From Gentiana macrophylla (lineage: Eukaryota; Streptophyta; Magnoliopsida; Gentianales; Gentianaceae): 64,000 bases of DNA. Positions within the stretch are counted from its first letter, which is position 1. The number at the start of each line of letters is the position of its first letter. The stretch is taken from positions 93,042,773-93,106,772 of the forward strand of contig CM047817.1 in the NCBI GenBank assembly GCA_026214975.1. The letters run 5' to 3'. Below the pieces are notes generated by a model. It did not search any database. It was not told the origin of the DNA and saw nothing but the letters and a program-made list of their open reading frames with translations. This document shows positions 707-64,000 of the stretch, one piece after another. The position numbers were made by a program, and so were the translations under genes.

Positions 707-754
707 GGTTTAGCATCATCTTTTAGAATTATCTTATGAACACAAATCTCGTGG

Positions 755-1714
755 CTAATACCTTGAATATCGGCAAATCATCCATCCAAAAGCTTTCTTA
801 TGCTTTTTCAACATTCCTAGTAATTGATCTTCTTGTTGCTCCGTTAAAGTTGATGAAATAATAACTGGTAAAAGATTATTAGTTTCAAGAAAAGCATACT
901 TCAAATTTAAAGGTAACGGTTTCAATTCCAGATTCTTAGGCGGATCTTCTATTGATGATTTAAGAACTGGTCCTTCTAGTTCTAACTCCAAATACTTATG
1001 CCATGGTGGTTTAAAAGTAAAACTTCCTTTATCTAGAGAAAGGATTATCTCTTTCATTTCAATGTCTTCCTCATCTTCTTTATAGATAGACATCGTTAAA
1101 CATTCGTCTAATCTGTCTTCAAAAATTGGTAATTGATTATCATGAATATCTTCTATAAAAGAACATGATTCTGGCGATGTGTATTGATGGTTCATAGCTT
1201 TGAAAATATTGAAAGCAACTTCATCTTCATTGACTCTCAAAATTAATTCTCCTTTCTGAACATCGATTAAAGTTCTCCCCGTAGCTAGAAATGGACGTCC
1301 TAAGATAAGCGGTGCTGAAAATCCTTCTTCCATTTCCATAACTACAAAGTCTACTGGAAAATAAAACTTGTCTACTTTAACCAATATGTCCTCAATAATT
1401 CCTTTAGGGTACTTAATCGATATGTCTGCCATTTGCAGAGTCATTTCAGTCTTAGTAAGCTTTCCTATGCCTAGCTTTCTATAATCCTCATAAGACATGA
1501 GATTTATACTAGCTCCCAGATCACATAAAACCTTCTTAAACGAAAATCCTCCAATTTCACACGGAATGGTAAAACTACCAGGATCTTTTAGTTTAGGTGG
1601 TAACTTATGCTGCAAAATTGCAGAACATTCTTCATTTAGGCATATATTCTCATATTCCTCTAATTTTTTCTTATTTGATAGTATATCTTTCAAAAACTTT
1701 CCATAGGCGGGCAT
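755..1714 (-). pseudogene. Retroviral-type aspartic protease domain of the Tat/Athila polyprotein
   Basis: A 319-residue open stretch starts MPAYGKFLKDIL, a junction typical of Tat/Athila Gag-protease polyproteins. It carries the aspartic protease active site as LCDLGASINLM (Asp-Leu-Gly rather than Asp-Thr-Gly, usual in this clade) and the second conserved segment LILGRPFLATGRTLIDV. In the family this enzyme dimerises and cleaves the Gag-Pol precursor. The frame is broken from gag upstream (about 1720-1770) and from RT downstream (about 710-755), so this is one exonless piece of a formerly continuous polyprotein. Confidence 0.85.
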
Positions 1715-1766
1715 ATTTATAAGAGCTTCGATAACAGGGATATTAACATGAATATGACGAAAAGTA

Positions 1767-3780
1767 TCAAGGAAACGAGCATACTGATCGCCTTAATCTT
1801 TTAATTTGATCTTTAGGTGGAAAAGGTAAAGACTCTAAATCTATAACCTTTGGTTTCGAAGTCATTCTCTCTTTTCCTTTATCCTTTGGGGTATTACTTG
1901 ATCGCCATGTTTCAGGTTCTTGAATTTTTTCTTTTAAAATATTCCCTGAATCCATCTCTACTTCAGATTCTTTCTGTTCTTCCTGTTTTTTATCCTTGTT
2001 TTCTTTATCTTCTATTCTCAAATGTTCCTTAAATAAAGTTCTTAAATCTTTATCCATGGGGTCTTTCAAAATCCTAGGGATTTTTACCCATTTTTCACCT
2101 TCATTCTCAGGTTCCAAACTTCTATTCCTTTTCAAGAAATTCTCTATAATCTCTTCTTCCTCATCCGTAAATTCAAGTTCATCTTTAGTTTCTTCCTTCT
2201 TTCCATCTAAATCATTCTCTACTTCATTATTACCGAAGTTTTCTACTCCATTACTACCGTAGAGTTTCCTACTTCTCGTAATCACAACATTTACCTCTCT
2301 TGGGTTTCTTTCAGTGTTACTTGGTAATCCTCCAGGAGGTCTACTGTTGTTACGTTCACCTTCCCTACTCAAATGATCTTCCATATTCCTTAATGAAGCT
2401 TCTATCGTTCTCATTCTGGTATCATGTCCATTCATAGATGTTTTCATTGTACTCATGTCCTTACTGACTGAACCTATAGAAGTCATCATTGTTTCCATAT
2501 TCTTAGCTTGAGTAGATACTACACCCATCATATTTTCCATCAGTTTTTCCCATTTTTCAACTCCTTCGCAGTTGAGTTGAACTCGAGTTATTGGTATACT
2601 TTGAGTGGTATCTTCGAGGATAGGATCTAGGTAATGATTGTAAATTCGATTAGATGTATTTCCTTGATAAACTTGATTATTATTCATATTCTTATACTGA
2701 ACTGGATATGGCGGTTGTCCTGGCTTACTAGGGTTTTCAGACCATCTAAAAGTTGGGTGGTCTCTTCTAATAGCATTAAATGAGTTTGAATATGCATTGT
2801 TCAAATTCCTATGCTGCTGAAGAAAACTCACTTCCTCTCTTGAATATCCTGTTGGTTCTTCTATCCCTACTGACACATTATCACGACTTGAGTATTCAGT
2901 TGGAGTATTATTTTCTGAATTTTGACTCTTACCTTGTTGTAATCCATCAAACTTCCTACTCAAATTTTCCAAGTGTGCTAGAACTTCCGTATTTGACGTA
3001 CATCCTTCTGCAAAAGCTACTTTTCTAGTGCTAGAACCGGTTTCCCACATTCTGTTGTTTTTGGAAATCTTTTCTATAGCATCGTAAAGCTGCTTGAGCT
3101 TCACTCATCATTAACGAACCACCGCATGCATGATCTACATCTCAGACGTGAATCTTTTCTTAGTTCTGACGTAAAAGTCGGATTTGCATATCTAAGGAAT
3201 AACCATGATCGGGACAAGCTCTTAACAATTTTTAAACCTTTCCCACGCATTCCCAAGTGTTTCTTCAGATCCTTGTCTAAAATTGGCAACCTCGACTTTT
3301 AATTCCAAATTTCGTCCCGAGTGAAATATTGTTTCGTAAATTCAGTTTGAATATCCTCCCAACTAGTTAATGAGTGGTGTGGAAGAGACATAAACCAATC
3401 TCGGCTCTTCCTTTTAAAGAAAAGGAAACATAGTCATCCTCGTTAATTCCTTATGAGCACCTTGACTTTTGGTCAGTATTGCACGCTTCTTCAAAGCAGA
3501 TAGAGATGATGATGTGGATCTTCATCATCTTCTCCTAGAAATTGGGCTCTTGCGTCAATTAAACCAAAAAGATGAGATTTAATTTCGAAATTATTCGCTC
3601 CTTCATTTGGTAAAAGTATGGGATTATTAGTCTGGTTTCTCCTTACAGTTTGATCACAGATAGGTCTCGGGTTTGGCGGATTGTTACGATTATTTCGGTT
3701 CCGATCTGGATTGTTCCTATTATTATTATTCTCGATTATTATTAATATTAATCAGAGGTTTTGTCCATGCCCTAAAGCAT
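1767..3780 (-). pseudogene. Tat/Athila Gag remnant
   Basis: The main open part (1767-3104, 445 residues) is the C-terminal half of Gag: hydrophilic, acidic and lysine-rich, with VITRSRKLYG matching the V-T-L-R-S-G-K signature that precedes protease in this clade. A second piece (3101-3289) and the stretch to about 3780 continue Gag in shifted frames, including a capsid-like segment (around 3330-3420, reading WFMSLPHHSLTSW) interrupted by stops. Gag packages the element RNA in cytoplasmic particles. At least three frame breaks are visible. Start codon not assignable because the N-terminus is disrupted. Confidence 0.75.
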
Positions 3781-4159
3781 GATCTAGCCTCTGTTCATTT
3801 GTTTCATCACTAGTTTCAAACCATTTTTTATTTTGATTAAGATGATTCCGTTGGAGATTTTCCAGGAGTCCTAAGTTTGGTTTGACCACGTTTACTCTCT
3901 ATCCGCAATCGCCTTTCGTAGCGTTTATATCAGGCTTATAAGGAGTAAGTGAGGCTTTACCGCTTCGGTCATCAACTAATTAAAATAGAAAAATGCTCGA
4001 GTTTTAAAGAAGAAGAAAATTGGTACTAAAAGAAAGTAGATACCAACGAAAAATAAAAAAAAGAAATGTGATAAGAAGAGTGTTGGTTTATCCTCGAGAA
4101 TTTTAAGCTAATACAGGTAGTAACCATAGACACAAAAAAAGAAATTAGCGACTTTGTCT

Positions 4160-4177
4160 TCCCCGGCAACGGCGCCA
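4160..4177 (-). other. Primer-binding site, tRNA-Asp type
   Basis: On the minus strand this reads TGGCGCCGTTGCCGGGGA, the complement of the 3' end of tRNA-Asp. This is the primer used by Athila/Tat elements for minus-strand DNA synthesis. It sits six bases inside the LTR end. The identical 18-mer is present in LARD1 at 55705. Confidence 0.9.
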
Positions 4178-6924
4178 GAAAGCTGACGTCACCAAAACCT
4201 ACCCTTAGAAACGGCGTCAAGAAAGGGACAGACCTTTTCTAGGTTAGACGGATCCTAACCGGCAGTGTACCGGGTCAAATTGTAGTGATAAAGTGGTGAG
4301 TCAAGTGTCGAATCCTCAGAGAAAAAAAAATGGTAATTCTTTTAAGTGTGGTTAAACACCAAAGAGCTGCTATTAACTCGATCTAAACCGCAATTTTATA
4401 ACACAGATTACTACTACTCTAACCAACATAAAATAAATGCGTAATTTAAAAGTTATTCTAATATAATATATATAGATATATAAATATATATAGATGTACA
4501 TAAATAGTAAAATATATATATATATATAAATATATAGATACCAAAATATAATATATGACTGAGACTAACCAAAGTATATGTAATCAATTTATATGATCTT
4601 TTTGATTAATGGAATGTGTTGATCTTCCTTTTGTAGGTCCAATTGAGTGAATGAAACGGTGTACTCCTAATGTCAACAATTCCTCCTCACACGGCGTATG
4701 AAATTGTCATATGTCAAAAGTCATCACCCAAGGTCCACAATCGCCCCATGCTAAACTTAGTTAGTCAAAACAGGTACCGAGTACAAATCTACCCCGGATA
4801 AAAGAGGTGATTCCATTTGTCAGATGGCCGATGTTATTCAAGAGGCTCCGGTTGTCAAGCGGATCGATTTAATACAAACGGTGTAGTTTCAATTAAACGT
4901 GATTTTAACATTATTAAGATCTCGAGTACAAATTTTAATAAGATTTATCTTTCCAGACAAATCGCCTCGGTAGGAAATAGGATTCCGTTAATCAGACGGC
5001 CATTTTTACCCTCCGGTTTTTCTATTTTTACTCATATCATGACTTCTCTGGTCAGTTCATCATCAGGTTATATGTGGTATTCATCATGATTGATTACTTC
5101 ATTCCGAATATGTTATCAATACGTAGCGAAATAGAAAAAGATTCATTTTACTCAATTTTATTTTAACATTATTCCATTATTGAAAAGATCAAAATAATAC
5201 GATTACATAACTTTGGCTAGTTATTAGATCTAGCCTAATAACATTATAAAAAAGAAGAAAATAACAAACATAAACATAATTATTATAGAAATTACCCGAT
5301 TACAACTGTTGACTCAGAAATCGTCTCTTTCCTGTGTATTACAACGACTTCAAAGAACACCGAACCTTCGAGAATTTCCCGAACATTACTACTACATACT
5401 ACTACTACATTATTTTGGCATAAGGCCTATTTACAAACTATAAAAGAAAGAGGGAAAGAGTTATATATATAGAATATGGTTTATATATATAATTTGGTAC
5501 AAAGTGAAAGTGAGCCTCTGATCCCCTATTTATAGAATTTTCCCCTTCCCGGACCGGTCCTGAAAACTTGCCGGATCGGTCCGGTGTAATGATGATAATC
5601 ATTACAGCTTGTCATCAACATGTTCCCCATGTTACTCCCTAATGATTATGTGAAGATTTTATTTGATTTTATTTGTAATTAATATTATTTTTAACTTATA
5701 AAATTCATATCTTTTGATTCGGACTCCAAACGATATGATCAAAATGCCATAAAAAGTTCTCTGAAAACTCTTCAACTTTCATGAAAGACTCTTCTTCGTA
5801 AAACGCCGCTTTGATAACCCCGTTGTCCTCCGAACGTATTTCGAGACTTTTACTAATAGAAATCAAATGACCACTTAATCACCATTTGAGTTGTAGACCT
5901 CCAATCTTCATGATTCAAAATGCATTAGAAAGCTCATATGAAGATCTTCAACTTCCATGAAGAACGTTTTCCCGGAAAATGTCTTTTAACGAGCCATTTC
6001 AATATATGTCGTTCTTCTAGATTAAGAAACAATTATTCCTTGATCATTTATATCGGTGACGCTTTATAACTTCCTTTCACCGACTTGTATTGACTTCAAA
6101 AAGTGTCGATACTGGGATTTGATTCATCTTAGGATTCGCAATGAAATAAACACAAAATACCCGTGTAAAATAGATTACAATATTCGGTCATTAAAACCGT
6201 ACAAAAACTACAACTTTTTATTATAAATACTAACTTTTACTACTAACTATACTAAACTACAAAGATTAATATTTTATACTAATTATATCATAATTTTAGA
6301 TATTTTACATAAAATTTGTCAATAAAACGTAATAAAATTACGTAAATTCAATCATATAAAAATAATACATCACCTAGATAATTTATATAATAAAATGAAC
6401 TTATTAACTGTCAATCCGTTTGTATCTATCTTAGATTGGCTACGGGAGTCATCCTCTTTAACTTGACTTAGCACCGGTTAGGTTGCTAGATCACTGTGCT
6501 ACATTACGTGACTTCACCTTTTGGGTATCCATCTCATATAACTTGCAAGCTTACGACACTAAGGATGCCGATATTAATCGTACACCTCGTCTAGGCAACA
6601 TTCCTATGGTTAGGCGTACTTCCTAAGCGATTACTCAAGCTCTCGTCCAACTAGCAATTACCATGTTATAGTCTCATGCTAATCTACGACGTATGTATAA
6701 TCAGGTGCTAGCAATCCCCAAATACAAAACTACCTAGATAACGCTGAACGTCCGTGAAGAGCAATTCATAAGCCTACCTAAGAGTTTTATATTGGTATTT
6801 CCTTTTACACATTTTAATTAAACTAAGCGAGTAACATAGCCATAGCCATACCTAATGAGATAATAAATTCAACTAAGTTAACCTAACCATAAAGACGTGG
6901 CGTAATTAATGAGATAGCGAGGGG

Positions 6925-38450: not shown

Positions 38451-40981
38451 CCCCTCAAGTTGGACGAGGGCAAGACCTAACTTGCTGCTCTGATGTACAA
38501 AGGACAAGTGAGAAAGAGACTTGGTGAGACAATCTGCAAGTTGATCCGATGCATTAACATGAGCAACACGCAACGAACCATATTGTACTTGATCATGAAT
38601 AAAATGATAGTCGATGGCAACGTGCTTCATCTTGGAATGAAATATAGGATTGTGACAGAACTGCGTGTTGCCCAAATTATCACAATAGACAACCAGAGCT
38701 CGGGAGACAGGAAAACCAAGATCACGAAGAAGAAATGTAACCCATATAAGCTCCGCGGTAGTAAAGGCGACAGACCGATACTCTGCCTCAGTAGAGGATC
38801 TAGCAATGGTGGATTGCTTCTTGGAGCTCCAAGAGATGGCATTCCTGCCAAGGTACACAACATACGCACTAGTAGAAGCATAATCATCCTTACAGCCACC
38901 CCAATCAACATCAGAAAAGGCATGAAGAACCGGTGAGGAATCACGGTAATGCTGAAGGCCTATATCCACTATCCCAGCCATGTAACGAAGCATGCGTTTA
39001 GCATGATTCCAGTGAACATCCGTGGGAGCATGCATAAACTGAGACAATTTATTGACATCAAAGGCAAGATCAGGGCGTGTAAACAGGAGATACTGAAGGC
39101 TGCCAATAACCATACGATACTCAGTAGCATCATCAAGCGGGATACCAGACTGCGCAGTAAGGCCAGAGAGATCAACAGGCAGCGGAGTAGTAACATGATT
39201 AGCCTGATCCATATGAAGACGAGCTAGAAGTTCAGTGGCATAGTGCTTTTGAGACAAGATACACCCGTGATCATTGTGTATAATCTCAATACCCAGGAAA
39301 TAGGAGAGAGAGCCAAGATCCTTGAGAGGAAAGCGACGACCCAAAAGAGAGATGAACGTCTCAAGAGCCTTAGGATCATTTCCTGTAATAATGATATCAT
39401 CGACATATACCAACAGATAAATAATAGTATTACCGGTATTGTAGATTAATAAGAAGAATCAGACCCGCATTCCGAAATTTGCTATTGAGAAGAAACCCTT
39501 TAAGCTCATCATACCATGCCCGAGGCGCCTGTTTCAACCCATAAATAGCCTTACGCAACTTGCAAACATGGTGCGGAAGCTCATTACTGACAAACCCGGA
39601 AGGTTGGGCCAAATATACATCCTCAGAAAGATGACACTGTAGAAACGCATTGTTGATATCCAACTGTCGTAAAGACCACCCCTGCGATAGTGCCAGGGTA
39701 AGAACAACACGTAGGGTGGTGGGTTTGACCACCGGACTAAAGGTCTCATAATAGTCAATGCCAGGACGCTGGGTAAATCCTTTGGCGACAAGCCGGGCCT
39801 TGTAGCGATCAACCGAGCCATCCGGATGGCGTTTGAGATGGAAGATCCACTTGGAACTGATGACATTCTGGTTGGGCTGGGAAGGAACAAGAGACCAGGT
39901 CTCATTACGGATGAGAGCATCATATTCCTCCTGTATGGCAGCCCTCCATTGAGGGTGTTTTTGAGCTTGGGTGATGGTGGCGGGTTCAGTGGTGGAGGAA
40001 GAGGAGAGTTGAGTGTGAAGGTTGAGCTTTTGGATGGGTTTGTGAATGTTATTGCAGGACCGAGTATGCATGGGGTGAGTGGATTGAGAAGGAGGAGAGG
40101 GTGGAGGGGGTGGAGGTGGAGGTGGTGGAGGTGGGGATGGGGGAGGGATGGAGGTGGAGATGGTGGAGGAGAGGGAGGTGGAGATGGTGGTGGTGTGGGA
40201 GGAGGTGGAGGGGGTGGTGGGGATGGGGGATTTTGTGTAGGAAGACGAAAAAAGAAGGAGATGGAAACCAGCCAGAGAGTGAAGGTAAACCGGAGGTGGA
40301 AAGGGAGGTGGCCGAGGGAACCTTAGAGGAGAAAGGGAACACAGACTCGACAAACTTGACATGACGGGAAACATAAAGGTGAGATTCCTCGAGATCATAG
40401 CAATAGTACGCATGTTGGTTGAGAACATAACCGAGAAAAACACACGGTTTGGAGCGGGGTTGTAGTTTGTGAGTGGTATAAGGACGTAACCAGGGATAGC
40501 ATAGGCAACCAAACACACGAAGTTTGTGGTAATTAGGAGGAGCTTGAAAAATGGACTCATAGGGGGAGGTCATTTTGAGGGTGGGAGTGGGAATACGGTT
40601 GATGAGATAGACCGCAGTAGAGAAAGCAAAGGGCCAGTAGGTGGTGGGAACAGAAGCATGACCAAGTAAGGAGAGGCCAGTTTCAATTATATGCATATTA
40701 CGACGTTCGGAGATTCCATTGTGTTCAGGAGTATAAGGTGGGGTGGTGAAAAACGAAATACCATTTGTTGAGAAATAGTCTCGAAGAGAGATAAAATCAC
40801 CACCGTTATCCGAGTATAAGACTTTGATTGTTTGTTCAAAATATTTTTAACAATGGCGCGAAAACGGATGAAGGTAGAATGAACATCATATTTACGAATT
40901 AAATGATATAACCAAATATAGCGCGTAAAATGGTCAACAAAGATAACAAAATACTTGAAACCATCAATAGAAAGAACAGGT
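38442..40981 (-). pseudogene. Ale copia integrase end, RT and RNase H
   Basis: On the minus strand: integrase core (40980-40600; YSDNGGDF and HNGISERRN with the catalytic D and E, one frame change near 40840), proline-rich linker (about 40100-40230, thirteen consecutive prolines), RT with [53 protein letters not shown] and LVYVDDIIITGND (about 39390-39415), RNase H with SSKKQSTIARSSTEAEYRSVA, ending QLEGWY and stop. A frameshift at about 39430-39475, just before the YVDD box, splits RT. Otherwise well preserved, suggesting modest age. Confidence 0.9.
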
Positions 40982-42396
40982 TGTTAGGAACATTTTGTTA
41001 TGTTTTGATGATGGCCATACTAGCTGTTATAGCAAGCCTGAAATAAGTTAGAAACCTCTGTATAAGTCTTTACTTAGAGTCTGACATGTTGTATAAGTTG
41101 AGTCAGACAAGTATTGTACTAGTTGGTAGGACGACAAAGTAAAAACAGATTTCCGGCAGAGTAAAGCCAGCTAAGTACCAGCAGAGAAGCAATGAAGACA
41201 TTATGGTCTGACTTATAACCAAGGAAGTCTGTGATGAACTTGGATAAGTCTAAGTTATGTTCCAAGTGATGAAACTTAATGTTTAAATATGGTGTACACT
41301 GATCTCACATAAATCAAGGATCAGTGAAGTTCAAGGATTCTCTTTTGATTTAAAGTATGAAGGAAACAGTAAATGGACAAAGTAAACTGACTGTCGGCTG
41401 AGTGAAGACAAAGCAGTGAAGGAAGATCCAAGCGGCAAAGTCAGAAGGATCACTTGACCGATCAGAGAACGGCTAAGTAAACCTTACCTAATTAGTTTCA
41501 TAAATATGATGAAGATACAAAATAACAAGCATTTTTTAAATGCACAATCAATAGAGGATCAATCAAGAACTGATTTTCTGATAAACGTTTGAAGAAAAAT
41601 CCGATCACTGAAATCAAGGAGAATACAATTAAGGGGGGGATCAAGAATAAAATCAAGGATTATTCCCCTCATTAATATAGCCAACGGACGAAAATTCAAA
41701 TCAAGTATTATCAAGGCTATAAATAGAAGGCATTGACAGAAAAAGAAAAAGACAAGGAGCACGAAAAAGAAACTGAGCAAAAAAACTCTGTCAAAGTGAA
41801 AAGTCTTCTATCTATGCGAAAAAGATATATCTAGTGATCAACTCAAAACTGAGAGCTACATTTCAATATCAAGCATTGAGATTGATCAAAAAGTTTGTGA
41901 ATCCAATTCACATCAATCAAGCAACTGAATCAGATCCATCTAAGAAGGAGTTGTGTTTGTGATAGCTGCTGAAGGATTTGATCCCAAGGAGCAGTGAAAG
42001 AGACTGAGTCACTGAAGCTGTTGTAGTCAAGGAGTGATAGTCTTGTAGATTGTGAAGCTTGTGTAGTCAAGGACAATCAGACTATTGAATATGTGAAAAC
42101 AATAGTGAATTCCTCCAATCATCACAGGAGAAGAGTGGATTAAGGGATAACACCACCCTGAACCACTATAAGCTTTGTGTCAATTTACTTTCAGCGATTT
42201 ACCTTACCACATTCATTTAATTACTTATATTATATCCTATATCCGCGATTGCCTAAACTACTTTGAAACAACATAGTAAGAAGGGACTTATCCGCTGTCC
42301 AAAAGCTTTTAAAAACAAGAAAAGTTCTTGAAACTCCACCATAGTCATTCACCCTCCCCCCTCTGACTATAGTTTTACCCTTCTCTGGCACCAACA
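40982..42396 (+). repeat. SIRE-1 5' LTR (1,415 bp)
   Basis: Starts TGTTAGGAACATT, TATAAATA at 41718-41725, C-rich tract at about 42350-42361, ends CACCAACA. Confidence 0.93.
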
Positions 42397-51666: not shown

Positions 51667-51667
51667 T

Positions 51668-53073
51668 TGTTAGGAACATTTTGTTATGTTTTGATGATGG
51701 CCATACTAGCTATTATAGCAAGCCTGAAATAATTTAGAAATCTCTGTATAAGTCTTTACTTAGAGTTTGACATGTTGTATAAGTTGAGTCAGACAAGTAT
51801 TGTACTGGTTGGTAGGACGGCAAAGTAAAAACAGATTTCCGGCAGAGTAAAGCCGGCTAAGTACCAGCAGAGAAGCAATGAAGACATTATGGTCTGACTT
51901 ATAACGAAGGAAGTCTGTGATGACCTTGGATAAGTCTAAGTTATGTTCCAAGTGATGAAACTTAATGTTTAAATATGGTGTACACTGATCTCACATAAAT
52001 CAAGGATTAGTGAAGTACAAGGATTCTCTTTTGATTTAAAGTATGAAGGAAACAGTAAATCGGCAAAGTAAACTGACTGTCAGCTGAGTGAAGACAAAGC
52101 AGTGAAGGAAGATCCAAGTGGCAAAGTCAGAAGGATCACTTGACCGATCAGAGAACGGCTAAGTAAACCTTACCTATTCAGATTCTTAAATATGATGAAG
52201 ATACTGAAGATCAAGCATTAAATGCACAATCAATAGAGGATCAATCAAGAACGGATTTTATGATAAACGTTTGAAGAAAATCCCGATCACTGAAATCAAG
52301 GAGAATACAATTAAGGGGGAATCAAGAATAAAATCAAGGATTATTCCCCTCATTAATATAGCCAACGGATGAAAATTCAAATCAAGGCTTATCAAGGCTA
52401 TAAATAGAAGGCATTGACAGAAAAAGAAAAAGACAAGGAGCACGAAAAAGAAACTGATCGAAAAAACTCTGTCAAAGTGAAAAGTCTTCTATCTGTGCGA
52501 AAAAGATATATCTAGTGATCAACTCAAAACTGAGAGCTACATTTCAATATCAAGCATTGAGATTGATCAACAAGTTTGTGAATCCAATTCACATCAATCA
52601 AGCAACTGAATCAGATCCATCTGAGAAGGAGTTGTGTTTGTGATAGCCGCTGAAGGATTTGATCCCAAGGAGCAGTGAAAGAGACTGAGTCACTGAAGCT
52701 GTTGCAGTCAAGGAGTGACAATCTTGTAGATTGTGAAGCTTGTGTAGTCAAGGACAATCAGACTATTGTATCTGTGAAAACAATAGTGAATTCCTCCAAT
52801 CATCACATGAGAAGAGTGGATTAAGGGATTACACCACCCTGAACCACTATAAGCCTTGTGTCAATTTACTTTTGGCAATTTACCTTACCACATTCATTTA
52901 ATTACTTATATTATATCCTATATCTGTGATTGCCTAAACTACTTTGAAACAACATAGTAATAAGGGACTTATCCGCTGCCCAAAAGCTTTTAAAACAAGA
53001 AATTTTTTGAAACTCCACTATAGTCATTCACCCCCTCCCCCGACTATAGTTTTACCCTTCTCTGGGACCAACA
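51668..53073 (+). repeat. SIRE-1 3' LTR (1,406 bp)
   Basis: Starts TGTTAGGAACATT, TATAAATA at about 52399, ends GACCAACA, followed by the target duplication CAGGT. Confidence 0.93.
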
Positions 53074-53901
53074 CAGGTGATGTCCAGACATCACTAAAAA
53101 TATTCTCTTGGGGGCGGGAAGAATGTAATGTAGAATCACCAAAGGGTAGTTTGTGACTTTTATTTTCTAGACACGCAGAACAATGCGTGGAAGAAGAATT
53201 GACTGACTGTAAATCATAATGTTTAATAATGGTAGATAAAATAGGCTGAGCTGGATGACCCAAGCGATGATGCCAGTCTTGAGACGAAGCTTTATTGGAC
53301 GCAAAGGCAACTAGAGGAGGATTGGGCCACTCGTATAGACCACTTCTAACAGTACCACGGAGGATAGGCTGGTTCGTCTGAATGTCCTGTACAATAAATT
53401 CAGAGGGTAAGAACTCAATAGACAGATTATGGGCTTTGCATAGTTGGGAAATTGAAATTAAATTACGAGACATGCTGGGAACACAAAGGACATTATGAAA
53501 AGTGGAAGGGTGAGCAAGTAATGGGAGGAGGAAGCGCCGATTATAATAAGTAATAGATAAACCCTTACCATCACCAACCATAAAATCATCAGTGCCGGTG
53601 TATGGAGCATGAAGAGACAAATTCTGGAGGTCCGAAGTGACATGGTGTGAAGCCCCGCTGTCAAGTAGCCAATTAGGTGTGTTGGAGTCGAGCTGAGCCG
53701 AGTCAGGCAAAGGAACTGCAACATTTGCTTAGGGCCGAGGGGGGCGTTGATTTCGAGGGCCAAAAATCTGGCTCATTTGAACCTGAAACTGAGGACAATA
53801 CTAAGAAAAATGACCCTGAGTATAACATAACTGACACTTACCCAAGAATGGCCAGTGAGTGTTGCTATTGGTGTTAAAATGGCGCTGGTCATTGTAATTG
53901 T
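53074..53901 (-). pseudogene. Ale copia Gag end, protease and integrase start
   Basis: On the minus strand from 53901: the zinc knuckle (about 53780-53840; CQLCYTQGHFS, a stop codon, then YCPQF), protease NWLLDSGASHHVTSDL (catalytic Asp-Ser-Gly intact, about 53640-53680), pre-integrase segments FHNVLCVPSMSRNLISISQL and WHHRLGHPA, and the integrase finger cysteines CSACLENKSHKLPF. It joins at 53078/40977 to the rest of integrase across SIRE-1, and at 53901/60382 to the rest of Gag across LARD1. Stops in the Gag part disable it. Confidence 0.88.
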
Positions 53902-54583
53902 TGTTAAGGGTGATTTTATACGTTTTATAAGGATATATTTTATATCAATATTCCCCATATGTGGATGTTTTTCATAGAAATCGAGCTTTATATTGAAATA
54001 TTGAGCAAGTGATGTTTTTAATGGGTTAGTTGCAAACTTGTATGATTTATGTGTAAAATTGATGGTTTTATATTGATTTGGAAGATACTACATTTTGCAA
54101 TATGTTTGATGACTTGTAGGTACACAATTCTGGCTTGGAAAAGGATTTAGAAGGTGTCAAAATCGGATTTGAAGTGAAGGAAAGAGATAAAGAAAGAAAA
54201 ATTAGCTTTAGAAGACCAAACTGGTGTTTACTTTGTTGGATTCCGAGTAGTGACGACCTTGCAACGCAGTTCTTGATATGATAACAACCGATTTGACTCT
54301 GGACCTCAAGAGAAGAGTTGTAGGGCTTGAAGAGAGGATTCTACAGGATTTTGAATCACTCCATTCCGACTTACGAGGCCCGAGATATGAGCGTTACAAG
54401 TTTGGATGTTGTTGCTGAAAATAGTGAACGGGCGTCCGACATTATGGACGGGCGTCCGGCACCTTTACTGTAGCAACCGACTTGATTTTTCTATAAAAGC
54501 AGCTGCGATTCCAACCCTAATTACATCAGATTTTTCATATGAAAATTACACAGACAGCAGCCGCTTTCTGGGAGCTTTCAAGG

Positions 54584-54616
54584 CCGATCACCCGAGCCTT
54601 GTGCTCGGGTGATCGG
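54584..54616 (+). other. GC-rich 14-bp perfect hairpin downstream of the LTR TATA box
   Basis: CCGATCACCCGAGC (54584-54597) and GCTCGGGTGATCGG (54603-54616) around loop CTTGT, about 90 bp after the TATA box. It is repeated unchanged in the 3' LTR (59257-59289) and would be a very stable RNA structure in R/U5. Confidence 0.9.
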
Positions 54617-54794
54617 GGTTAGATTAGGTCTTTTATTTTGTTCTTTTCCTTCTTGTTCGAGCATGATGAAGGCTTGAAGCTTTCATCCATGGAGCAGCCA
54701 TGTAATCCTTTTCTCGCAGCACTTTGATTCCTTTCTATGGATATTTTGTAAGTTTTATTTATAATTGTTTCTTTTTCTATGTTCAATTGTATCT

Positions 54795-55280
54795 TGCAAT
54801 ATAAATCGGAAGATGATTGCATGATTTGATGCTACCGTATGACGGAAGTCGGTGTAGTTTAGATCACCATAGGAAAGAGTAGATCTTTAATCTATACATA
54901 ACGGAAGTTCGTAGGTTAAATATCTAGATTTACGAGAGGATCACAATTTGATTAATTCGATGCAAGATTATCTTAGATTGGAATTGAGGATATCACCGTT
55001 ACGGAAAGATAGGATTTTTCATGTGTTTAATTCATTATGTTGTTCTTGTTCTCTTTCATGTTTTTATGCCGCATGTTAATCGAATTTAGATAACGGAAGT
55101 TAATAGATTCATTAGATTATCGTGAGGAGATTGACAATAATTATTCCAACAAACGGAAGTTGAGGGATAATGTTGTTAGTTAGGATTCAATCCATATCTT
55201 TGATTTGTATCGATATTAGTTAAGACCGGAAGGTAAACTAATTAATGGCGTGATAAATCGGAAGAGGAAACGCTTCATTA
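54795..55280 (+). other. LARD1 LTR stem-loop array with CGGAA loop core, 5' LTR copy
   Basis: Eight consecutive stem-loops. Stems: TGCAAT/ATTGCA (54795, 54816); ACCG/CGGT with outer CT/AG (54832-54857); TTTAATCTA/TAGGTTAAA (54886, 54912; one G-T pair); TATC/GATA (54991, 55008); GAATTTA/TAGATTC (55082, 55104; one G-T); ATTATTCC/GGGATAAT (55140, 55164; one G-T); ATTAGTT/AACTAAT (55215, 55236); TAATGGCGT/ACGC plus CATTA with a 2-nt bulge (55243, 55270-55280). Every loop contains CGGAAG or CGGAAA, most often AACGGAAGTT. A ninth, weaker one (AGATC/GATCT, 54861-54886) has AGGAAAG in its loop. Confidence 0.85.
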
Positions 55281-55704
55281 GAAAAGATAATAATCCAAGA
55301 TAACTAATGAATGAATGTTTGTCTATCTTGTTGATTTTCGGTGGGGTGATGGTTGTTGGGAATAGGTTGATCATGGTTTGTTTATGTTTGTTCGGATTAT
55401 TAGTTAGTTTTATCTTGTTTTCGTAGATGTAGTTTTATTTATTTTGTCCATAACTATATTTCCGGCTTTGGATTAACAATCCTCCGCCCGATTATTTTTC
55501 TCATTTTAGTTTAGGTTTAGTTAATAAAGAAGAATTAATTAAATTAGATTCAACATCCCAATTCCCTGAGGATCGATACCCGTACTTATCCAACTTTACT
55601 AGCAACTACCCGGTATTCGGCCGGTTAGGAGGTAGTTTTGCATGGTAGTATAGGTTTTATAAATTTTCTTTTGTTTTAATGATGCAAAATCTCCCCAACA
55701 AAAG

Positions 55705-55722
55705 TGGCGCCGTTGCCGGGGA
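55705..55722 (+). other. LARD1 primer-binding site, tRNA-Asp type
   Basis: TGGCGCCGTTGCCGGGGA, four bases after the 5' LTR. Confidence 0.93.
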
Positions 55723-56040
55723 ATCGGTGTTTTGTTGAATCTTCTTTCGTTAATTTTTCTATTTTGTTACGTTTTATTTGTTTTTATTTTATTTCAATAA
55801 AAGTAGCGTTTAACAAATCGAGAGTTTTTATTTTTGCCGTGTTTCGATAACCGTTAAGTTAAGAATGTGCAAAAAGTTTTTAATCGATTTGTGAAAGCGT
55901 GAACTATATGTTTATTTGTATCTAGTCTAACCTCTGCGTGCTTTAATTTGATGTGGTCGCTCTGTGATATTTGATGTATGATCTTTTAAGAAATTAGGGT
56001 TTCTTTGTGTTTCTGCGCTTATGCAAATTGATTGTTGGAC

Positions 56041-56302
56041 GAAGCGCTCGTAAGTGAACGCCCGTCCGATCCGCCCCTAACATGCAGTAAACGAAAGGCC
56101 TGGTTTGTTGGATGCTCGTCCGTTCCAAAACGATCGCTCGCATTCGTGTTTTCAAGAACCAGACGGACGTCCATATATCTAAACTCCCGCCCGTCCAGTT
56201 CATAATCTGCAGGTGAACGCCCGTTTGACTTGTCGAACGAGCGTCCAGGGCTAAAAATCCAGGTGAACGCCCGTCTGCTTTGTTGAATGCACGTCCAGGT
56301 TC
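56041..56302. repeat. CGCCCGTCC/GGACGTCC motif cluster
   Basis: At least eight copies of a CpG-rich word close to (A)ACGCCCGTCC or GACGGACGTCC. The last four are paired: 56222/56242 and 56272/56292, 20 bp apart within pairs and 50 bp between pairs. Confidence 0.85.
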
Positions 56303-56477
56303 CAGAATTTCTCTTAACTTGATTTTTAATGCTTTATTTGATATGGATACTTTAATTTGAGCTTCTATGGCTAATTGTTTTTACGTAGATGATCTGAACT
56401 TGCATGTTTACACATTTCCATCTATGAATCCATGTTAAATAACTGATTAATTTTTATATGCATGATTCATCTATGCA

Positions 56478-56936
56478 AGTTATAGTCACTGTCGGTTCTC
56501 GTATGCTATAACTGGTCTTCGTGTTAATTAGTAGCTAATGTCGGTTTCCGTATGCTACGTCCTTTTCCATATGAGTTATATCTGTTTAGTATAGCTAACT
56601 GTTGGTTTTCCATAATGCTATCACCTTTGACGAGTCTTAAGGCGCGTCTACAATGCATATAATGTACAGCACTGTCGTTTATCGTAACCTGTCATTATTT
56701 GGTAGACGTTTATTATATACATGTCATGCTGCAAATGAGTGGGCTAGTTTTCTTTCTTTTATTTCCTTTTATTTTTGCATATCACTTAGATGCATATCAT
56801 TTAGTTGCATGTCATCTAGTTGCATTGTTTTTCTATTTTTCTTTTATTTTTCTTGAGCGTAGTTAACTGTCGGTTTCCGTAATACTACCTCGTTTTTTTC
56901 CATGATGGTAACTGTTGGTTTTCCATATGCCATCAT
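56478..56936 (+). other. LARD1 internal stem-loop array with conserved 18-21-nt loop
   Basis: Six stem-loops whose loops resemble TAACTGTCGGTTTTCCGTAT. Stems: AGTTATAG/CTATAACT (56478-56485, 56506-56513); GTAGC/GCTAC (56531-56535, 56554-56558); ATAGC/GCTAT (56591-56595, 56617-56621); ACAG/CTGT (56666-56669, 56689-56692); GTAGT/ACTAC (56859-56863, 56884-56888); ATGATGG/CCATCAT (56902-56908, 56930-56936). All are perfectly complementary though their sequences differ. Confidence 0.88.
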
Positions 56937-57541
56937 TATTTTATTATTGTATATCATATAGATTGCATTGTAATATCTTTTTCATGTAGTTGCACCTAGC
57001 CCTACTGTTTTGTAATGTTCCATGTATAATTTCCATCTTTATATGGGCTTAATTTGAAAATTCTCTATGACTTCTTTTCCGTGTATAATCCTCTATCATT
57101 ATTAGTTGGAGTTTGATGTTTCTGCTTGCACATGTGGTCTATATTATTCTACAAGCTTCTGTGGCTTTATTCTTAGATGTCCTGAGTTTAAGAGTTGATC
57201 TTTCCATCTGAGCTATTATTTCTTTTTGTGCTTATATCAAACTTCCATATTTAGACGTTTTGATGTTCTGTACTTTCCCTGTTTGATTTTTCCATCTGAA
57301 GCAATTCTATTTTGTGCTTTGTAAGTTCTATTCCCCCTTGCCCCCGAGGTATTTCTTTGTTTTTCATGAGTGCAGGGTATTTGCATTAGCTTTTGTGAGT
57401 TTTAGACGATATCGGTTTTCTGGTGGATGGTCCACAATCTAATGATATCCTCGAGCATTCCTGGGTGATGCGCATCATCCCAGGGTTGCTCCCTTTCGGA
57501 AGACAATCAGCTAAGTTCTTTTATCTTGTCTTTATTTCTGC

Positions 57542-57580
57542 ACAACATGAGGACATGTTGTAATTTAAGTGTGGGGGAGG
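57542..57580 (+). other. Hairpin-G-tract motif, copy 4
   Basis: Perfect 8-bp stem ACAACATG/CATGTTGT (57542-57549, 57554-57561) around loop AGGA, followed by AATTTAAGTGTGGGGGAGG. It lies 1.0 kb upstream of the LTR-adjacent copy. Confidence 0.88.
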
Positions 57581-58035
57581 GAAATGGTTTGATGTATCTA
57601 CATTCATTTGCCATACTATTATATTTCTATGAAAGGTGCTAAATTTTAAAATTTTGTTTGTTTTGTCCCAAGTGAACAAATGCATATCTTTGTTCGAGTT
57701 CTTATATCATTGGTGCATTATTTTGCGTATTTAGTAAATTTAGTTGTTTCACCCGACACTATTTTTCACGTGCCATAGTAGATGATGAGCTATGTTTTTA
57801 AGCCATACCCATTTGATTAGAGATTTCTGATGATTATCGCATGATTCTTTGCTTCCATACTAATTTTGAAATTTTAATAGTTTGTGTTTAGAGTTAAAGT
57901 ATGACATACTGTGAATATCTGAAGGTTTGAATGTGATAGGAAGGATATAATTTAAGGTTTGCATACCAATCTAAGATGAATAATATGAATTATGTATTTA
58001 AGTGTCGGAAGTAGCTGCCGATGATTTGAGTGCGG

Positions 58036-58137
58036 TAGGGCATTATCACGAAATGTCCTATACCACTATGAGGTTCAATAGCTCCCGACTGGCTGATGAT
58101 AGTAGTCCCAACTAGGGTGTTATCACGAAACATCCTA
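58036..58137 (+). other. LARD1 stem-loop pair with identical TATCACGAA loop
   Basis: TAGGGCAT/ATGTCCTA (58036-58043, 58053-58060) and TAGGGTGT/ACATCCTA (58113-58120, 58130-58137), both with loop TATCACGAA. Two stem positions change together in both strands between the copies. Confidence 0.85.
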
Positions 58138-58556
58138 TTGCCTGGGAATGAGGGCATATATGCTATATATGTGGAATTGATTGAACTTTAAGAAAAATTA
58201 GTGAATGGTAATGTGAAAAGATTGTTGAAAACCGTAGTTATCTTCTGACTATCCCCAGTATAAACTGAATGATATGTTGTAGGGACTATCCTCTGAGTAT
58301 GTCGGAAATATTTTAAATACTCCTTATTATTATTTTTCGAGTACGTATGTTTTGTGAGGTGCATGTTATAATCGTTTTTATATTTCTGATTTAAATGGGA
58401 TGTTGGCTAGTTTTGCTTGAATCAATTTCAAGTGTGGATTTGGTGGAAATTTATTATGGCTATGCACACACTCACTTGGGTGAACCTCTAAACTACTTGA
58501 ATATGTTTTATATTTGCATAAGTGTTTATTTGTCTCGAGTGATGATTATGTTTTGT

Positions 58557-58593
58557 CTTGCTCGGGGACGCAGCAAGGTTTAAGTGTGGGGAG
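58557..58593 (+). other. Hairpin-G-tract motif, copy 5 (LARD1 polypurine tract)
   Basis: Stem CTTGCT/AGCAAG (58557-58562, 58572-58577) around loop CGGGGACGC, followed by GTTTAAGTGTGGGGAG, which ends one base before the 3' LTR and so serves as the polypurine primer. Confidence 0.88.
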
Positions 58594-58594
58594 T

Positions 58595-60381
58595 TGTTAA
58601 GGGTGATTTTATACGTTTTATAAGGATATATTTTATATCAATATTCCCATATGTGGATGTTTTTCATAGAAATCGAGCTTTATATTGAAATATTGAGCAA
58701 GTGATGTTTTTAATGGGTTAGTTGCAAACTTGTATGATTTATGTGTAAAATTGATGGTTTTATATTGATTTGGAAGATACTACATTTTGCAATATGTTTG
58801 ATGACTTGTAGGTACACAATTCTGGCTTGGAAAAGGATTTAGAAGGTGTCAAAATCGGATTTGAAGTGAAGGAAAGAGATAAAGAAAGAAAAATTAGCTT
58901 TAGAAGACCAAAGCGGTGTTTACTTTGTTGGATTCCGAGTAGTGACGACCTTGCAACGCAGTTCTTGATATGATAACAACCGATTTGACTCTGGACCTCA
59001 AGAGAGTTGTAGGTCTTGAAGAGAGGATTCTACAGGATTTTTAATCACTCCATTCCGACTTACGAGGCCCGAGATATGAGCGTTACAAGTTTGGATCTTT
59101 GTTGTTGAAAATAGTGAACGGGCGTCCGGCACCTTTACATCAGTAGCAACCGACTTGATTTTTCTATAAAAGCGGCTGCGATTCCAACCCTAATTACATC
59201 AGATTTTTCATACGAAAATTATACAGACAGCAGCCGCTTTTTGGGAGCTTTCAAGGCCGATCACCCGAGCCTTGTGCTCGGGTGATCGGGGTTAGATTAG
59301 GTCTTTTATTTTGTTCTTTTTCCTTCTTGTTCGAGCATGATGAAGGCTTGAAGCTTTCATCCATGGAGCAGCCATGTAATCCTTTTCTCGCAAACACTTT
59401 GATTCCTTTCTATGGATATTTTGTAAGTTTTATTTATAATTGTTTCTTTTTCTATGTTCAATTGTATCTTGCAATATAAATCGGAAGATGATTGCATGAT
59501 TTGATGCTACCGTATGACGGAAGTCGGTGTAGTTTAGATCACCATAGGAAAGAGTAGATCTTTAATCTATACATAACGGAAGTTCGTAGGTTAAATATCT
59601 AGATTTACGAGAGGATCACAATTTGATTAATTCGATGCAAGATTATCTTAGATTGGAATTGAGGATATCACCGTACCGGAAAGATAGGATTTTTCATGTG
59701 TTTAATTCATTATGTTGTTCTTGTTCTCTTTCATGTTTTTATGCCGCATGTTAATCGAATTTAGATAACGGAAGTTAATAGATTCATTAGATTATCGTGA
59801 GGGAGATTGACAATAATTATTCCAACAAACGGAAGTTGAGGGATAATGTTGTTAGGTTAGGATTCAATCCATATCTTTGATTTGTATCGATATTAGTTAA
59901 GACCGGAAGGTAAACTAATTAATGGCGTGATAAATCGGAAGAGGAAACGCTTCATTAGAAAAGATAATAATCCAAGATAACTAATGAATGAATGTTTGTC
60001 TATCTTGTTGATTTCGGTGGGGTGATGGTTGTTGGGAATAGGTTGATCATGGTTTGTTTATGTTTGTTCAGTTATTAGTTAGTTTTCTTTGTTTTTCGTA
60101 GATGTAGTTTTATTTATTTTGTCCGCAACTATATTTCCTGGCTTTGGATTAACAATCCTCCGTCCAGTTATTTTTCTGTTTTAGTTTAGGTTTAGGTTTA
60201 GTTAATAAAGAAGAATTAATTAAATTAGATTCAACATCCCAATTCCCTGAGGATCGATACCCGTACTTATCCAACTTTACTAGCAACTACCCGGTATTCG
60301 GCCGGTTAGGAGGTAGTTTTGCATGGTAGTATAGGTTTTATAAATTTTCTTTTGTTTTAATGATGCAAAATCTCCCCAACA
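58595..60381 (+). repeat. LARD1 3' LTR
   Basis: Starts TGTTAAGGGTG, TATAAAA at 59165-59171, GC-rich hairpin 59257-59289, CGGAAG stem-loop array 59470-59957, ends CCCCAACA. Compared with the 5' LTR it has one rather than two ACGGGCGTCC units (20 bp shorter there) and a few substitutions. Confidence 0.95.
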
Positions 60382-60594
60382 ATTGTTGTTGTTGTAATTG
60401 GGGGGCGGCTGTTGTGGTTGACCCCGCCAAGTAGACTGTTGCGGCTGTGAATTTGACCACTGAGAGTTGGAGTGCTGCGGCTGATTTTGATGCGGCCTAG
60501 ATTGCTGATAATGGCGGTTGGGCTGTGATGATGGCCGGTACGCTGCATTGGCGGTGGCTGGAGCAAAGCCCGGCGGTGGCGTAACCGATTTAGT
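60382..60594 (-). pseudogene. Ale copia Gag, Gln/Asn-rich part
   Basis: The minus strand reads VTPPPGFAPATANAAYRPSS followed by a glutamine-, asparagine- and serine-rich stretch ending PPPNYNNNN at the LARD1 insertion point, where it joins 53901. This is the low-complexity linker before the Gag zinc knuckle. It is cut on its N-terminal side by element X near 60595. Confidence 0.8.
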
Positions 60595-62022
60595 GATGGA
60601 GTCAACTTTACTGTACTTTGGTGTGCAGTTTAACCCCCGTTTATCACCGTATTGGCATGTTTTGGGTAGATATAGGCCGTTTCGAGAGTATAATCGAGAA
60701 TTATATACACGGGGAGTCAAACTGTCATATCGATGGTAAACTCCGCCTTTTTAGCGATATTTCACTCTTTTTAGAGTGCTTTTGTCTTGCGGAATTATGC
60801 GTGGTGTTTGTTTGTCTATGTTATTGCAGGGCTTAGGTGACTCGAGGACCCGAAAGGTGATGTTTTGGACTATGAGACGTGATCGTGGCCCGAATGTAGC
60901 ATAAAAAGTGAAGAAAAGCCAATTTTGGGATGAGGACAAGCCAGACAGGTGTTTGATATACCTCAGACGGGCGTCTGAGGGAAGGCCACATCCGACGGGC
61001 GTTTGCTCATTCCAGACGGGCGTCCACAGCATTGGCACTCATTCAGAAAGTTATGTTTTTGGCTAGACGGGTGTCCAAAAGACCCCCAGACGGGCGTTTG
61101 GGTAGGCTCAGCCCGATTCACGAAGCTCATTTAACACAGACGGTCGTCCAGGTTTACTGACGAGCATCCAGGGGTCGAAAAGCCTCAAGTCATAAGTTAC
61201 CAGACGGGCGTCCAAAGGAATGCGAACGCCCGTCCAATGAAGACGAAGCCCTAATATCTTCATATTTTCCAGCGGACGGGCGTCGACATGGACCAGGCAG
61301 GCGTCCGGGACCGGCAAGAAGCAGATTTCGACCTAATCTATAAATACGTTGACTCATTCAGCCCCTACTCATGTTTTGCCGACTTTAGACTTTTCTTAGG
61401 CGATTTAGGGGCGATTTTAGCATAGATTAAACACCCTTTGATCCCTTGATTCCCTAGATAATTTCCTTTGATTCTACACATCTTTCATAGCTTAGTTTTG
61501 CATTACAAGATCAAAGATTCAACTTTTTGGGTACAACTGTTTGTTCATACTTTCTGGATCATATTTTCAGCAGTTATATGGTAATGATGTTTCTTTTATT
61601 TATTGCTTTTATTTCAATTTCCATTCTTTATTCTGTTATTACATTATTTTGAGTAGCTAAATTCATGTGTAGTCGAATTATGTGAAAGCGAGCGAAAACC
61701 CTAAGGGGGATGAGATAGGGAGTTGTGTAGTGCGTAAATTATTGTTTAAACGATTAATCCACGTCCTAAAACTTGTTTTAACGTCTTTGAATTAGATTGA
61801 TCACCTAGTTCACTGTCACACACATCAAACTTATAGATGTATTTTGCGGTGAGATGTGGGATAAGGGGTTTTAGGATCGTTGCGTAGATTCGGCCTAGTT
61901 GTTAGGTCCGACCCCAATACAAAGGTTTGTCATCGTTGTTCTAGCGACTCTAGAGCTTAATCATGTTAGGTTAATCGGTTTTCTAAAGGGAGAATTAATT
62001 AACTGCACATAGGGTGGTTAGA
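60595..62022 (+). repeat. Element X: LTR of a further retrotransposon, interrupted by SIRE-2
   Basis: It starts where Ale similarity stops (TGATGGAGTCAAC). There is no coding content. It has eleven or so GACGGGCGTCC-like words in both orientations (60965-61310) and TATAAATA at 61339-61346, then a U5-like stretch to 62022, where a minus-strand SIRE LTR begins. The right end and its partner LTR lie beyond the window. The motif cluster relates it to LARD1. Left boundary is a best estimate. Confidence 0.6.
60965..61310. repeat. GACGGGCGTC near-palindrome cluster in element X
   Basis: The CGT (or variant) of successive copies falls at 60972, 61000, 61021, 61072, 61095, 61145, 61165, 61209, 61231, 61281 and 61302. 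Neighbours are often 20-23 bp apart, mostly as pairs. Confidence 0.85.
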
Positions 62023-63440
62023 TGTTGGTCCCAGAGAAGGGTGAAACTATAGTCAGAGGGGGGGGGGGGTGAATGACTATAGTGGAGTTTCAAAAACTTT
62101 TCTTTTGTTTAAAAGCTTTTGGGCAGCGGATAAGTCCCTTCTTACTATATTGTTTTCAAATCTGTTTAGACAGTCACATATGTAAATTTTGATGTATGGA
62201 AATTAAATGAATGCTGTAAAGTAAATTGCAGAAATTAAATTGACACAAGGCTTATAGTGGTTCAGGTGGTGTAATCCCTTAATCCACTCTTCTCTGTGAT
62301 GATTGGAGGAATTCACTATTGTTTTCACCGATACAATAGTATGATTGTCCTTGGCTTCCCAAGCTTCACAATCTACAAGACTATCACTCCTTGACTCGCA
62401 ATGCGGCTTCAAGTGATTGATCTTCCCTTTGTCGCTCCTTAAGATCAAGATCCTTCAACGGCTATCACAGATTCAACTCCTTCTCGATTGCCTCCGATTC
62501 GATTTGCTTCAGATTTGATGTGAATGTGATTCACACACTTGCTTGATCAATCTCAGTTCTGAGTATGACTTTGTAGTTCTGATATTTGAGTTGATCACTA
62601 GATGTATCCTTGTAAGTTCAGAGAGAGGGCTTTTCAAATTGACAGAGTTTCTGCTTGATTTTTTCTTTTTCAATCGTTGTTTGTTTTTCTGTCAATGCCT
62701 TCTATTTATAGCCTTGAGTAACTTTGGTTTTGAAATTCCGTCCGTTGGCTATATTAATGAGGAATAATCCTTGATTTTATTCTTGATTCCCCTTAATTGT
62801 ATTCTCCTTGATTTCGTTGATCGGATTCTTTCTTCAAACGTATAATGAAAACCCGTCCTTGATTGATCCTCTATTGATTGTGCATTTAATGCATGATCTT
62901 CTGTATCTTCAACATATATCAAATCTGATCTGGTAAGTGTTACTTCGCCGTTTTTAGAACGGTCGAGTGAGCCTTCTGACTTAGCCGTTAGTTCTTTCTT
63001 CGCTGTTTTGTTTTCACTTTGCCGAAGGTCAGTCTACTCAGCCGATTCACTGTTTCCTTCTTTGTTCTAGTATTAGGAGAGTCTTTGTACTTCACTGATC
63101 CTTGATTTGGGTGAGACCAGTGTACACCATATTTGAACATTGAGTTTCATCACTTGAAAACATAACTTAGACTTATCCAAGGTCATCACAGACTTCCTTG
63201 GTTATAAGTCAGACCATAATGTCTTCATTACTTCTCTGCTGGTGCTTTGCTGGCTTCACTTTGCCGAATATATGTTTTTGCTTTGCCGTCCTACCAACTA
63301 GTACAATACTTGTCTGACTCAACTTATACAACATGTTAGACTCTAAGTAAAGACTTATACAGAGAGTTCTAACTTATTTCAAAGCTTGTTGTAATGTACT
63401 AGTATGGCCATCATCAAAACATAATAAAATGTTCCTAACA
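62023..63440 (-). repeat. SIRE-2 3' LTR (1,418 bp)
   Basis: Plus-strand ends TGTTGGTCCC and GTTCCTAACA. The minus-strand TATAAATA is at 62703-62710. A G run of about a dozen near 62058-62070 corresponds to the C-rich tract of the SIRE-1 LTRs. Confidence 0.9.
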
Positions 63441-63589
63441 ATTTCCCCTTTTTGATGATGCCAAAACCCTCATAAGCCCTGAACATAAGTAATCAACATT
63501 TTTCATAATAAACAACTGAATAAAAACTTTAGCAATTTTATTCATCCATCATAGGGTAATAAGTTCTAAGACTTTATTCAAGTGTTACA

Positions 63590-64000
63590 AACTATATTTT
63601 GCTCAATTCAGCCTTGTACCTTTTGAATTTTGTAGTCGAACCTCTTCCATGTCTTTCCAATCAATTTGAAACTTCCACTTCCAAGAAGCCAAAGTGTGTA
63701 TTCAGATACACCTTGGAAAACTCTTTTGGCAAAAAGTCTGTTGAAATCAGGCATGGTCTCATTTGCCTTAGGTTCTCCAAAATATTTTTCAAGTCTTTCC
63801 TAGCCTCAAAGAATATGTGAATCTGCAAACTTGAGACATTTGTAGAGACTCCACTATTTCTGTTTCTCCATTCTCCCATAGGATTGAAGAATTTTGCCAT
63901 ATATTTGAAATCTTTTGTTGTTGGTTGCAAGTCTTTCGGTCCTTTTGCATATAGTGGTATGGTGAGCTTGGTTTGTTGTGGTTTGTTTGAGAAGTGCAAA
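63590..64000 (-). pseudogene. SIRE-2 accessory protein, C-terminal part, partial
   Basis: 112 residues are open to the window edge (IPLYAKGPKDLQ, YMAKFFNPMGEW), matching the SIRE-1 accessory frame at 51130-51230. The frame changes near 63661; similarity continues to about 63600. No recognisable domain. Its presence in two separate copies shows the frame belongs to the family. Confidence 0.65.

Follow-up and report, generated by a model that had tools for sequence, protein, structure and literature searches.

In MuLV the stem-loops SL-C and SL-D, which serve packaging and dimerisation, share the same GACG tetraloop (PMC5874298). The hairpin array described here is similar in that, past the primer binding site (PBS), the noncoding leader of the element contains multiple stem-loops that have a recognition loop in common. 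It differs in consisting of six copies, in having an internal loop and an inner stem as its conserved part instead of an apical GACG tetraloop, and in belonging to an element without gag.

Sireviruses, which are Ty1/copia elements, are also close to this locus, since many short dyad copies, often with a CGG-CCG core, occur in noncoding parts of these plant LTR retrotransposons. The available sections of PMC2829016 present these dyads as DNA palindromes of the same sequence, placed in the LTR and upstream of env, whereas in our array the arms vary with pairing kept and the location is the leader of a Ty3/gypsy-type LARD. The Sirevirus repeated motif was rejected as an identification because the arms differ between copies and two of the hairpins (c3 and c6) carry TGG/CCA.

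Diaspora and Calypso, soybean elements of the Athila group, have a tRNA-Asp PBS 5 bp beyond the LTR (PMC1142308, in its accessible part). They share with the element studied here the long LTRs and the similarly placed tRNA-Asp PBS, and the noncoding leader of Diaspora is unusually long (873 bp). Diaspora, however, encodes gag-pol, and the same part of that source mentions no hairpin array. The barley element BARE2 is likewise non-autonomous, is packaged in trans and has conserved dimerisation and packaging signals, but it belongs to Ty1/copia, has kept pol, and its signals are not described as a repeated covarying hairpin in the available text of PMC3735527. Even for Ty1 and Ty3 the binding sites of Gag are described as not precisely defined (PMC4974528).

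In the literature searched, in which subscription journals were thinly covered, no description of a comparable hairpin array was found. Gene-less LARDs can be abundant in plant genomes and their entry into foreign particles is poorly understood. The array, with its defined core, offers a short candidate for a signal of this kind, its six internal copies provide covariation evidence within one element, and it could serve as a covariance-model query for related elements and for a helper.

Structure of the element

The array belongs to an LTR retrotransposon of 6.48 kb (53902-60381) in the window, that is, the whole 64-kb stretch of DNA that was analysed. The features of this element are collected in Table 1. 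It has paired LTRs with a target site duplication, a PBS and a polypurine tract (PPT), and no ORF of 100 aa starting with ATG, GTG or TTG was found in the internal region (2.9 kb), where the longest stop-to-stop frames have 71 aa on the plus and 128 aa on the minus strand. With this full anatomy and no coding capacity in the internal region, the term LARD that the first-pass annotation had used for the element is a fitting one.

The PBS, which we take to be of the tRNA-Asp type, begins a few nucleotides past the LTR, as in Athila/Tat (OTA) elements. In the type and placing of its PBS and in its long noncoding leader the element resembles Diaspora and Calypso, and it is probably a non-autonomous LARD of Athila/Tat type. 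The two LTRs have a K2P divergence of 0.021 (2.1%) over 1776 aligned positions. Commonly used substitution rates for plants are 1.3e-8 and 7e-9, which place the insertion at 0.8-1.5 million years ago. A TATA-like TATAAAAG is present at 54492 in the 5' LTR. With a transcription start some 30 nt downstream of this box, the distance between the RNA 5' end and the array would be almost 2 kb.

Table 1. Position of the hairpins and of the retrotransposon features within the window
Feature	Position	Strand	Description
Target site duplication, left	53897..53901	.	ATTGT; direct read
5' LTR	53902..55700	+	1799 bp; match to 58595-60381
Primer binding site	55705..55722	+	TGGCGCCGTTGCCGGGGA, 18 nt, 4 nt after 5' LTR
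c1	56478..56513	+	Outer stem AGTTATAG/CTATAACT plus T-G pair; inner stem CGG/TCG (one G-U)
c2	56531..56558	+	Outer stem GTAGC/GCTAC; inner stem CGG/CCG
Half-site	56563..56573	+	TTTTCCATATG, 11 nt, without 5' half; trace of decayed copy, or duplicated spacer
c3	56591..56621	+	Outer stem ATAGC/GCTAT; inner stem TGG/CCA
c4	56666..56692	+	Outer stem ACAG/CTGT, outward past 1-nt bulge AATG/CATT; inner stem 2 bp
c5	56859..56888	+	Outer stem GTAGT/ACTAC, outward past 1-nt bulge GAG/CTC; inner stem CGG/CCG
c6	56902..56936	+	Outer stem ATGATGG/CCATCAT plus T-G and A-T; inner stem TGG/CCA
d1	58036..58060	+	TAGGGCATT-ATCACGA-AATGTCCTA
d2	58113..58137	+	TAGGGTGTT-ATCACGA-AACATCCTA; two compensated pairs relative to d1
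Polypurine tract	58582..58594	+	AAGTGTGGGGAGT, before 3' LTR
3' LTR	58595..60381	+	1787 bp
Target site duplication, right	60382..60386	.	ATTGT

Other repeats and hairpins were noted along the element. Soon after the TATA-like box, at 54586-54613, the 5' LTR has a strong hairpin ATCACCCGAGC...GCTCGGGTGAT, which by eye is present in both LTRs. Repeats around GAACGCCCGTCC / GGACGGGCGTCC were seen by eye in the leader (56050-56300) and in the LTR (54424-54462); they presumably correspond to the first array of the first-pass annotation. The segment 57460-57561 contains a near-palindrome CCTGGGTGATGCGCATCATCCCAGG and a perfect hairpin ACAACATG-agga-CATGTTGT, directly followed by an internal PPT-like AAGTGTGGGGGAGGG near 57570.

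The hairpin array

Six stem-loops had been proposed at 56478-56936, and all six quoted stems were found. Each unit occurs once on the plus strand, and the set is beyond chance. The perfect helices that flank the cores of c1 to c6 have 8, 5, 5, 4, 5 and 7 bp, respectively. The first-pass annotation had spoken of a near-identical 20-nt loop. A core is indeed conserved, but the loops between the quoted stems measure 18 to 21 nt and are not single-stranded throughout: inside each of them there is a short inner stem (YGG/CCR) of 3 bp (2 bp in c4), closed by a T-rich triloop or tetraloop. The quoted consensus loop itself has no exact copy and two copies within three ungapped mismatches. Below the inner stem we observed a conserved asymmetric internal loop whose 5' strand reads (T)AACTGT and whose 3' strand reads TA(A)T, the variants being TCACTGT, TAATGT and CACTGT on the former and TAAC on the latter. 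This internal loop is closed by the outer stem. The outer stems had been called different, and their sequences do differ, but they are related, with the consensus RTAGY/RCTAY common to their innermost pairs.

The start-to-start distances from c1 to c6 are 53, 60, 75, 193 and 43, in agreement with the irregular spacing of 40 to 190 given before. At least two decayed copies had been suspected between 56513 and 56590; the 11-nt half-site of Table 1, which aligns with the c5-c6 spacer, could be recovered there and nothing more. Copies of a 15-nt repeat, TGCATATCAYTTAGW, occupy 56776-56820 between c4 and c5, and the repeat is found once after c6 at 56948-56962.

Covariation of the stems

A MAFFT alignment of the units shifts the outer stems by one column, and with it RNAalifold recovers the inner stem only, with one compensated pair. 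Because MAFFT misplaces the outer stems, the arms were typed in register by hand. The pair table comprises the five innermost pairs of the outer stem and the three pairs of the inner stem in the six units. Standard pairs occupy 46 of the 48 cells, both unpaired cells being held by c4. Five of the eight pairs changed on both sides, two are invariant and one changed on one side. In this register, which was set with the structure in view and so favours covariation, the covariation score was 0.550 against 0.322 (sd 0.056) in shuffles, a value reached in none of 500, and controls in which the partner was slid gave scores of 0.187 or less. The five pairs with double changes compare with 2.1 in shuffles (3/500) and the seven cells with double changes with 2.2 (0/500). 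One of the five shuffle measures, that of further pair types, showed no excess (446/500). The change from CGG/CCG to TGG/CCA could represent two CpG decays and therefore carries the least weight among the five double changes.

Read on the transcript strand, all three pairs that are not Watson-Crick are G-U, and A-C does not occur. When the two strands were compared, c2, c4, c5 and c6 folded better on the plus strand, and c1 and c3 about equally on both. The presence of G-U without A-C cells, together with the better plus-strand folding of four of the six units, weakly favours the RNA over the DNA level. For the array alone, and within the one element studied, we consider a constraint at the RNA level probable.

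Chance expectation and folding

The core profile, which was built from the same six units that it scores, gave 19.9-25.3 for these units, whereas elsewhere in the 64 kb no score on either strand exceeded 13.5. The product of the helix chance tails would be about 5e-12 if the copies were independent, which they are not. When arms were swapped among units, 2 of the 720 possible arrangements reached the observed helix total, one of them being the true arrangement. The structural descriptor alone is unselective: it had 11 matches on the plus and 10 on the minus strand of the window, against 9-22 (both strands) in 20 Markov windows, and 517 matches on both strands of 4.02 Mb of sequence from 243 other loci. 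Selectivity comes from the clustering of six units that have the core.

The stability of the single hairpins relative to shuffles is weak (z -0.93 to -2.36), and folding of the whole stretch gave z -1.72. As delimited here, c4 is equalled or exceeded in stability by 51% of the windows of the element. Outward extension of the stem was rare in shuffled flanks for c4 (25/500) and c5 (9/500), and no better than in shuffled flanks for c1 (447/500), c2 (362/500), c3 (410/500) and c6 (274/500). In local folding of 55705-57600 the outer stems of five of the six units were paired at a probability of at least 0.65 (c1, 0.65-0.75; c2, 0.93-0.96; c4, 0.82-0.85; c5, 0.86-0.96; c6, 0.81-1.0); the values for c3 were 0.40-0.43, and 0.28-0.31 with a wider window.

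Database searches

No match at the gathering level was obtained with Rfam in the 64-kb window, and hammerhead and retrozyme RNAs were discarded on this basis. Two weak Rfam matches (E 0.27 and 3.7) fall in the internal region, both outside the array. The core was scanned as a pattern of 14 specified bases against a viral and a genome collection, neither of which includes plant genomes. It matched at least 120 stretches of the viral and at least 119 stretches of the genome collection, with one match listed per stretch; the matches listed (80 per collection) were all chance-like, in prokaryotic or viral DNA, and were rejected as relatives. The PBS pattern matched four stretches of the viral collection, which is without plants; they are GC-rich and by eye not retrotransposon-like, and were set aside. 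A role like that of siRNA854 was also dismissed, as this concerns the 3' region of Athila6 in the available part of PMC3276544. Two further candidates were dropped, namely the plant structured-RNA classes, whose description does not mention transposons in the sections of PMC12218528 at hand, and the enod40 domains (PMC10578108, available in part).

Possible function of the array

Since the element has no genes, its RNA must enter the particles of another element. Moreover, a constant core combined with a free stem sequence, in repeated copies, is what would be expected of a protein-binding RNA hairpin. We are therefore inclined, tentatively, to regard the array as a repeated packaging hairpin of an Athila/Tat-type LARD that would be read by Gag. 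The outer stem, free in sequence as long as it pairs, would present the internal loop; a protein would read this loop and its neighbours, and the repeats would allow multivalent binding. As the element provides no protein, the likeliest reader would be the nucleocapsid part of the Gag of an autonomous partner, and the array, acting as a packaging signal, would cause the element RNA to be taken into the particles of that partner. The protein binding, the identity of the reader and the packaging role are all putative.

The idea of a structured RNA signal in the LARD, advanced in the first-pass annotation, is supported by the location on the plus strand of a retroelement, by the covarying stems and by the presence of G-U without A-C cells. 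Like known packaging signals, the array is made of stem-loops and belongs to the noncoding leader of the genomic RNA. Its position speaks against the claim that it lies where packaging signals usually are, as 777 nt of internal region separate it from the 5' LTR and some 2 kb from the inferred RNA start. It is thus not near the RNA 5' end; packaging signals elsewhere are possible. In Ty1, mapping placed the packaging sequences within the initial 580 nt of the RNA (PMC4974528).

A more elaborate version, which we find doubtful, is a modular multivalent packaging code in which the partner Gag would read the internal loops and the hairpins d1 and d2, nearer the 3' end, would act alongside. If true, this code would provide a plant LARD with a defined signal for trans-mobilisation and would make it possible to find the helper from sequence.

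The same RNA hairpins could instead be read by an RNA-binding protein of the host, or serve the stability, export, localisation or dimerisation of the RNA, which we judge rather unlikely. The covariation would be equally explained and names no reader, the array is well inside the RNA and not at its 5' end, and, since the element encodes no protein, a host reader would be equally reachable. However, no feature pointing specifically to a host protein was detected, and Rfam gave no family at the gathering level.

Reverse transcription gives added chances for template switching, and stems could be kept perfect without any function if switching at quasi-palindromes used one arm as the template for its partner. 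The adjacent position of the changed pairs in d1 and d2 would suit such mutational upkeep, and the mechanism has been described to create and maintain RNA hairpins (PMC8794818). Nevertheless it appears improbable for this array, as it gives no reason for an unpaired internal loop to be conserved when the spacers cannot be aligned, and the compensated pairs of c1 to c6 are single, scattered, mostly transitions and in several cases beside a G-U, as in stepwise compensation.

A repeated motif acting at the DNA level, such as transcription factor sites or palindromes like those with CGG-CCG in Sireviruses, has a similarly small probability. In Sirevirus motifs a CGG...CCG core recurs in many copies, according to the available part of PMC2829016, and in four of our six units a T-rich centre is flanked by CGG or CG and by CCG or CG. 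Yet the Sirevirus repeats are there described as one palindrome, whereas in our array the outer arms change together and a non-palindromic internal loop is kept, and CGG/CCG is absent from c3 and c6. The three G-U against no A-C cells on the plus strand, although a small number, also argue against a DNA motif, as do the position of the array downstream of the LTR and a PBS that is not of the Sirevirus (Ty1/copia) kind.

Recent duplication of one hairpin, with likeness by descent and differences by decay, would agree with the collinear blocks described below and with the consensus RTAGY/RCTAY, but it is disfavoured and very improbable, as decay would unpair the arms and yet nearly all cells hold standard pairs and double changes coincide, and as the LTRs have diverged too little for the differences to postdate this insertion.

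Origin of the copies

The mutual best matches of the cores are c1 with c4 (0.83), c2 with c5 (0.85) and c3 with c6 (0.93), in collinear order, from which we infer, with moderate confidence, that a block of three hairpins was probably duplicated (c1-c2-c3 / c4-c5-c6). The collinear order of sisters has by itself a chance of 1 in 15, and the similarity of c5 to c3 (0.83) is nearly equal to that of c5 to c2. Simple tandem duplication had been said not to explain the array; the block duplication would explain part of it, but the array is only partly accounted for in this way. The c4-c5 spacer, with its T-rich and TGCAT-rich repeats, probably grew later. In 21 comparisons no homology past the shuffle filter was detected between the direct block spacers; the only comparisons past the filter were pre1/s45 (5/400) and s45/post6 (1/400), via the TGCAT-rich repeat.

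Comparison of the sisters over 15 pairs revealed five changes in the 5' arm and four in the 3' arm. All four 3' changes are opposite 5' changes (p 0.008, treating the three sister comparisons as independent). Pairing was kept in three of these four coincident changes and lost in the innermost pair of c1/c4.

A second hairpin family

The hairpins d1 and d2 have 9-bp stems and the same 7-nt loop ATCACGA, and are fully paired with one G-U each. Two adjacent pairs differ between them on both sides. Covarying hairpins may thus be a general trait of the element. A count of perfect hairpins of at least 7 bp speaks against such generality, since the element has 18 of them and 40 Markov copies had a mean of 14.3 and a maximum of 25, which is no excess.

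Surroundings of the element

A second LTR element is found at 1-6500 on the minus strand, and has an identical 18-nt PBS at 4160-4177 (minus strand) followed by sequence that by eye is gag-pol-like. No match to the array core with up to four mismatches was present in its leader. Around the array-bearing element there are related repeats of 1.4-2 kb at 40981-42396, 51667-53073 and 62023-63979 (95% direct, 82-83% inverted). Minus-strand frames that look copia-like by eye flank the insertion at 53024-53710 and 60280-60720.
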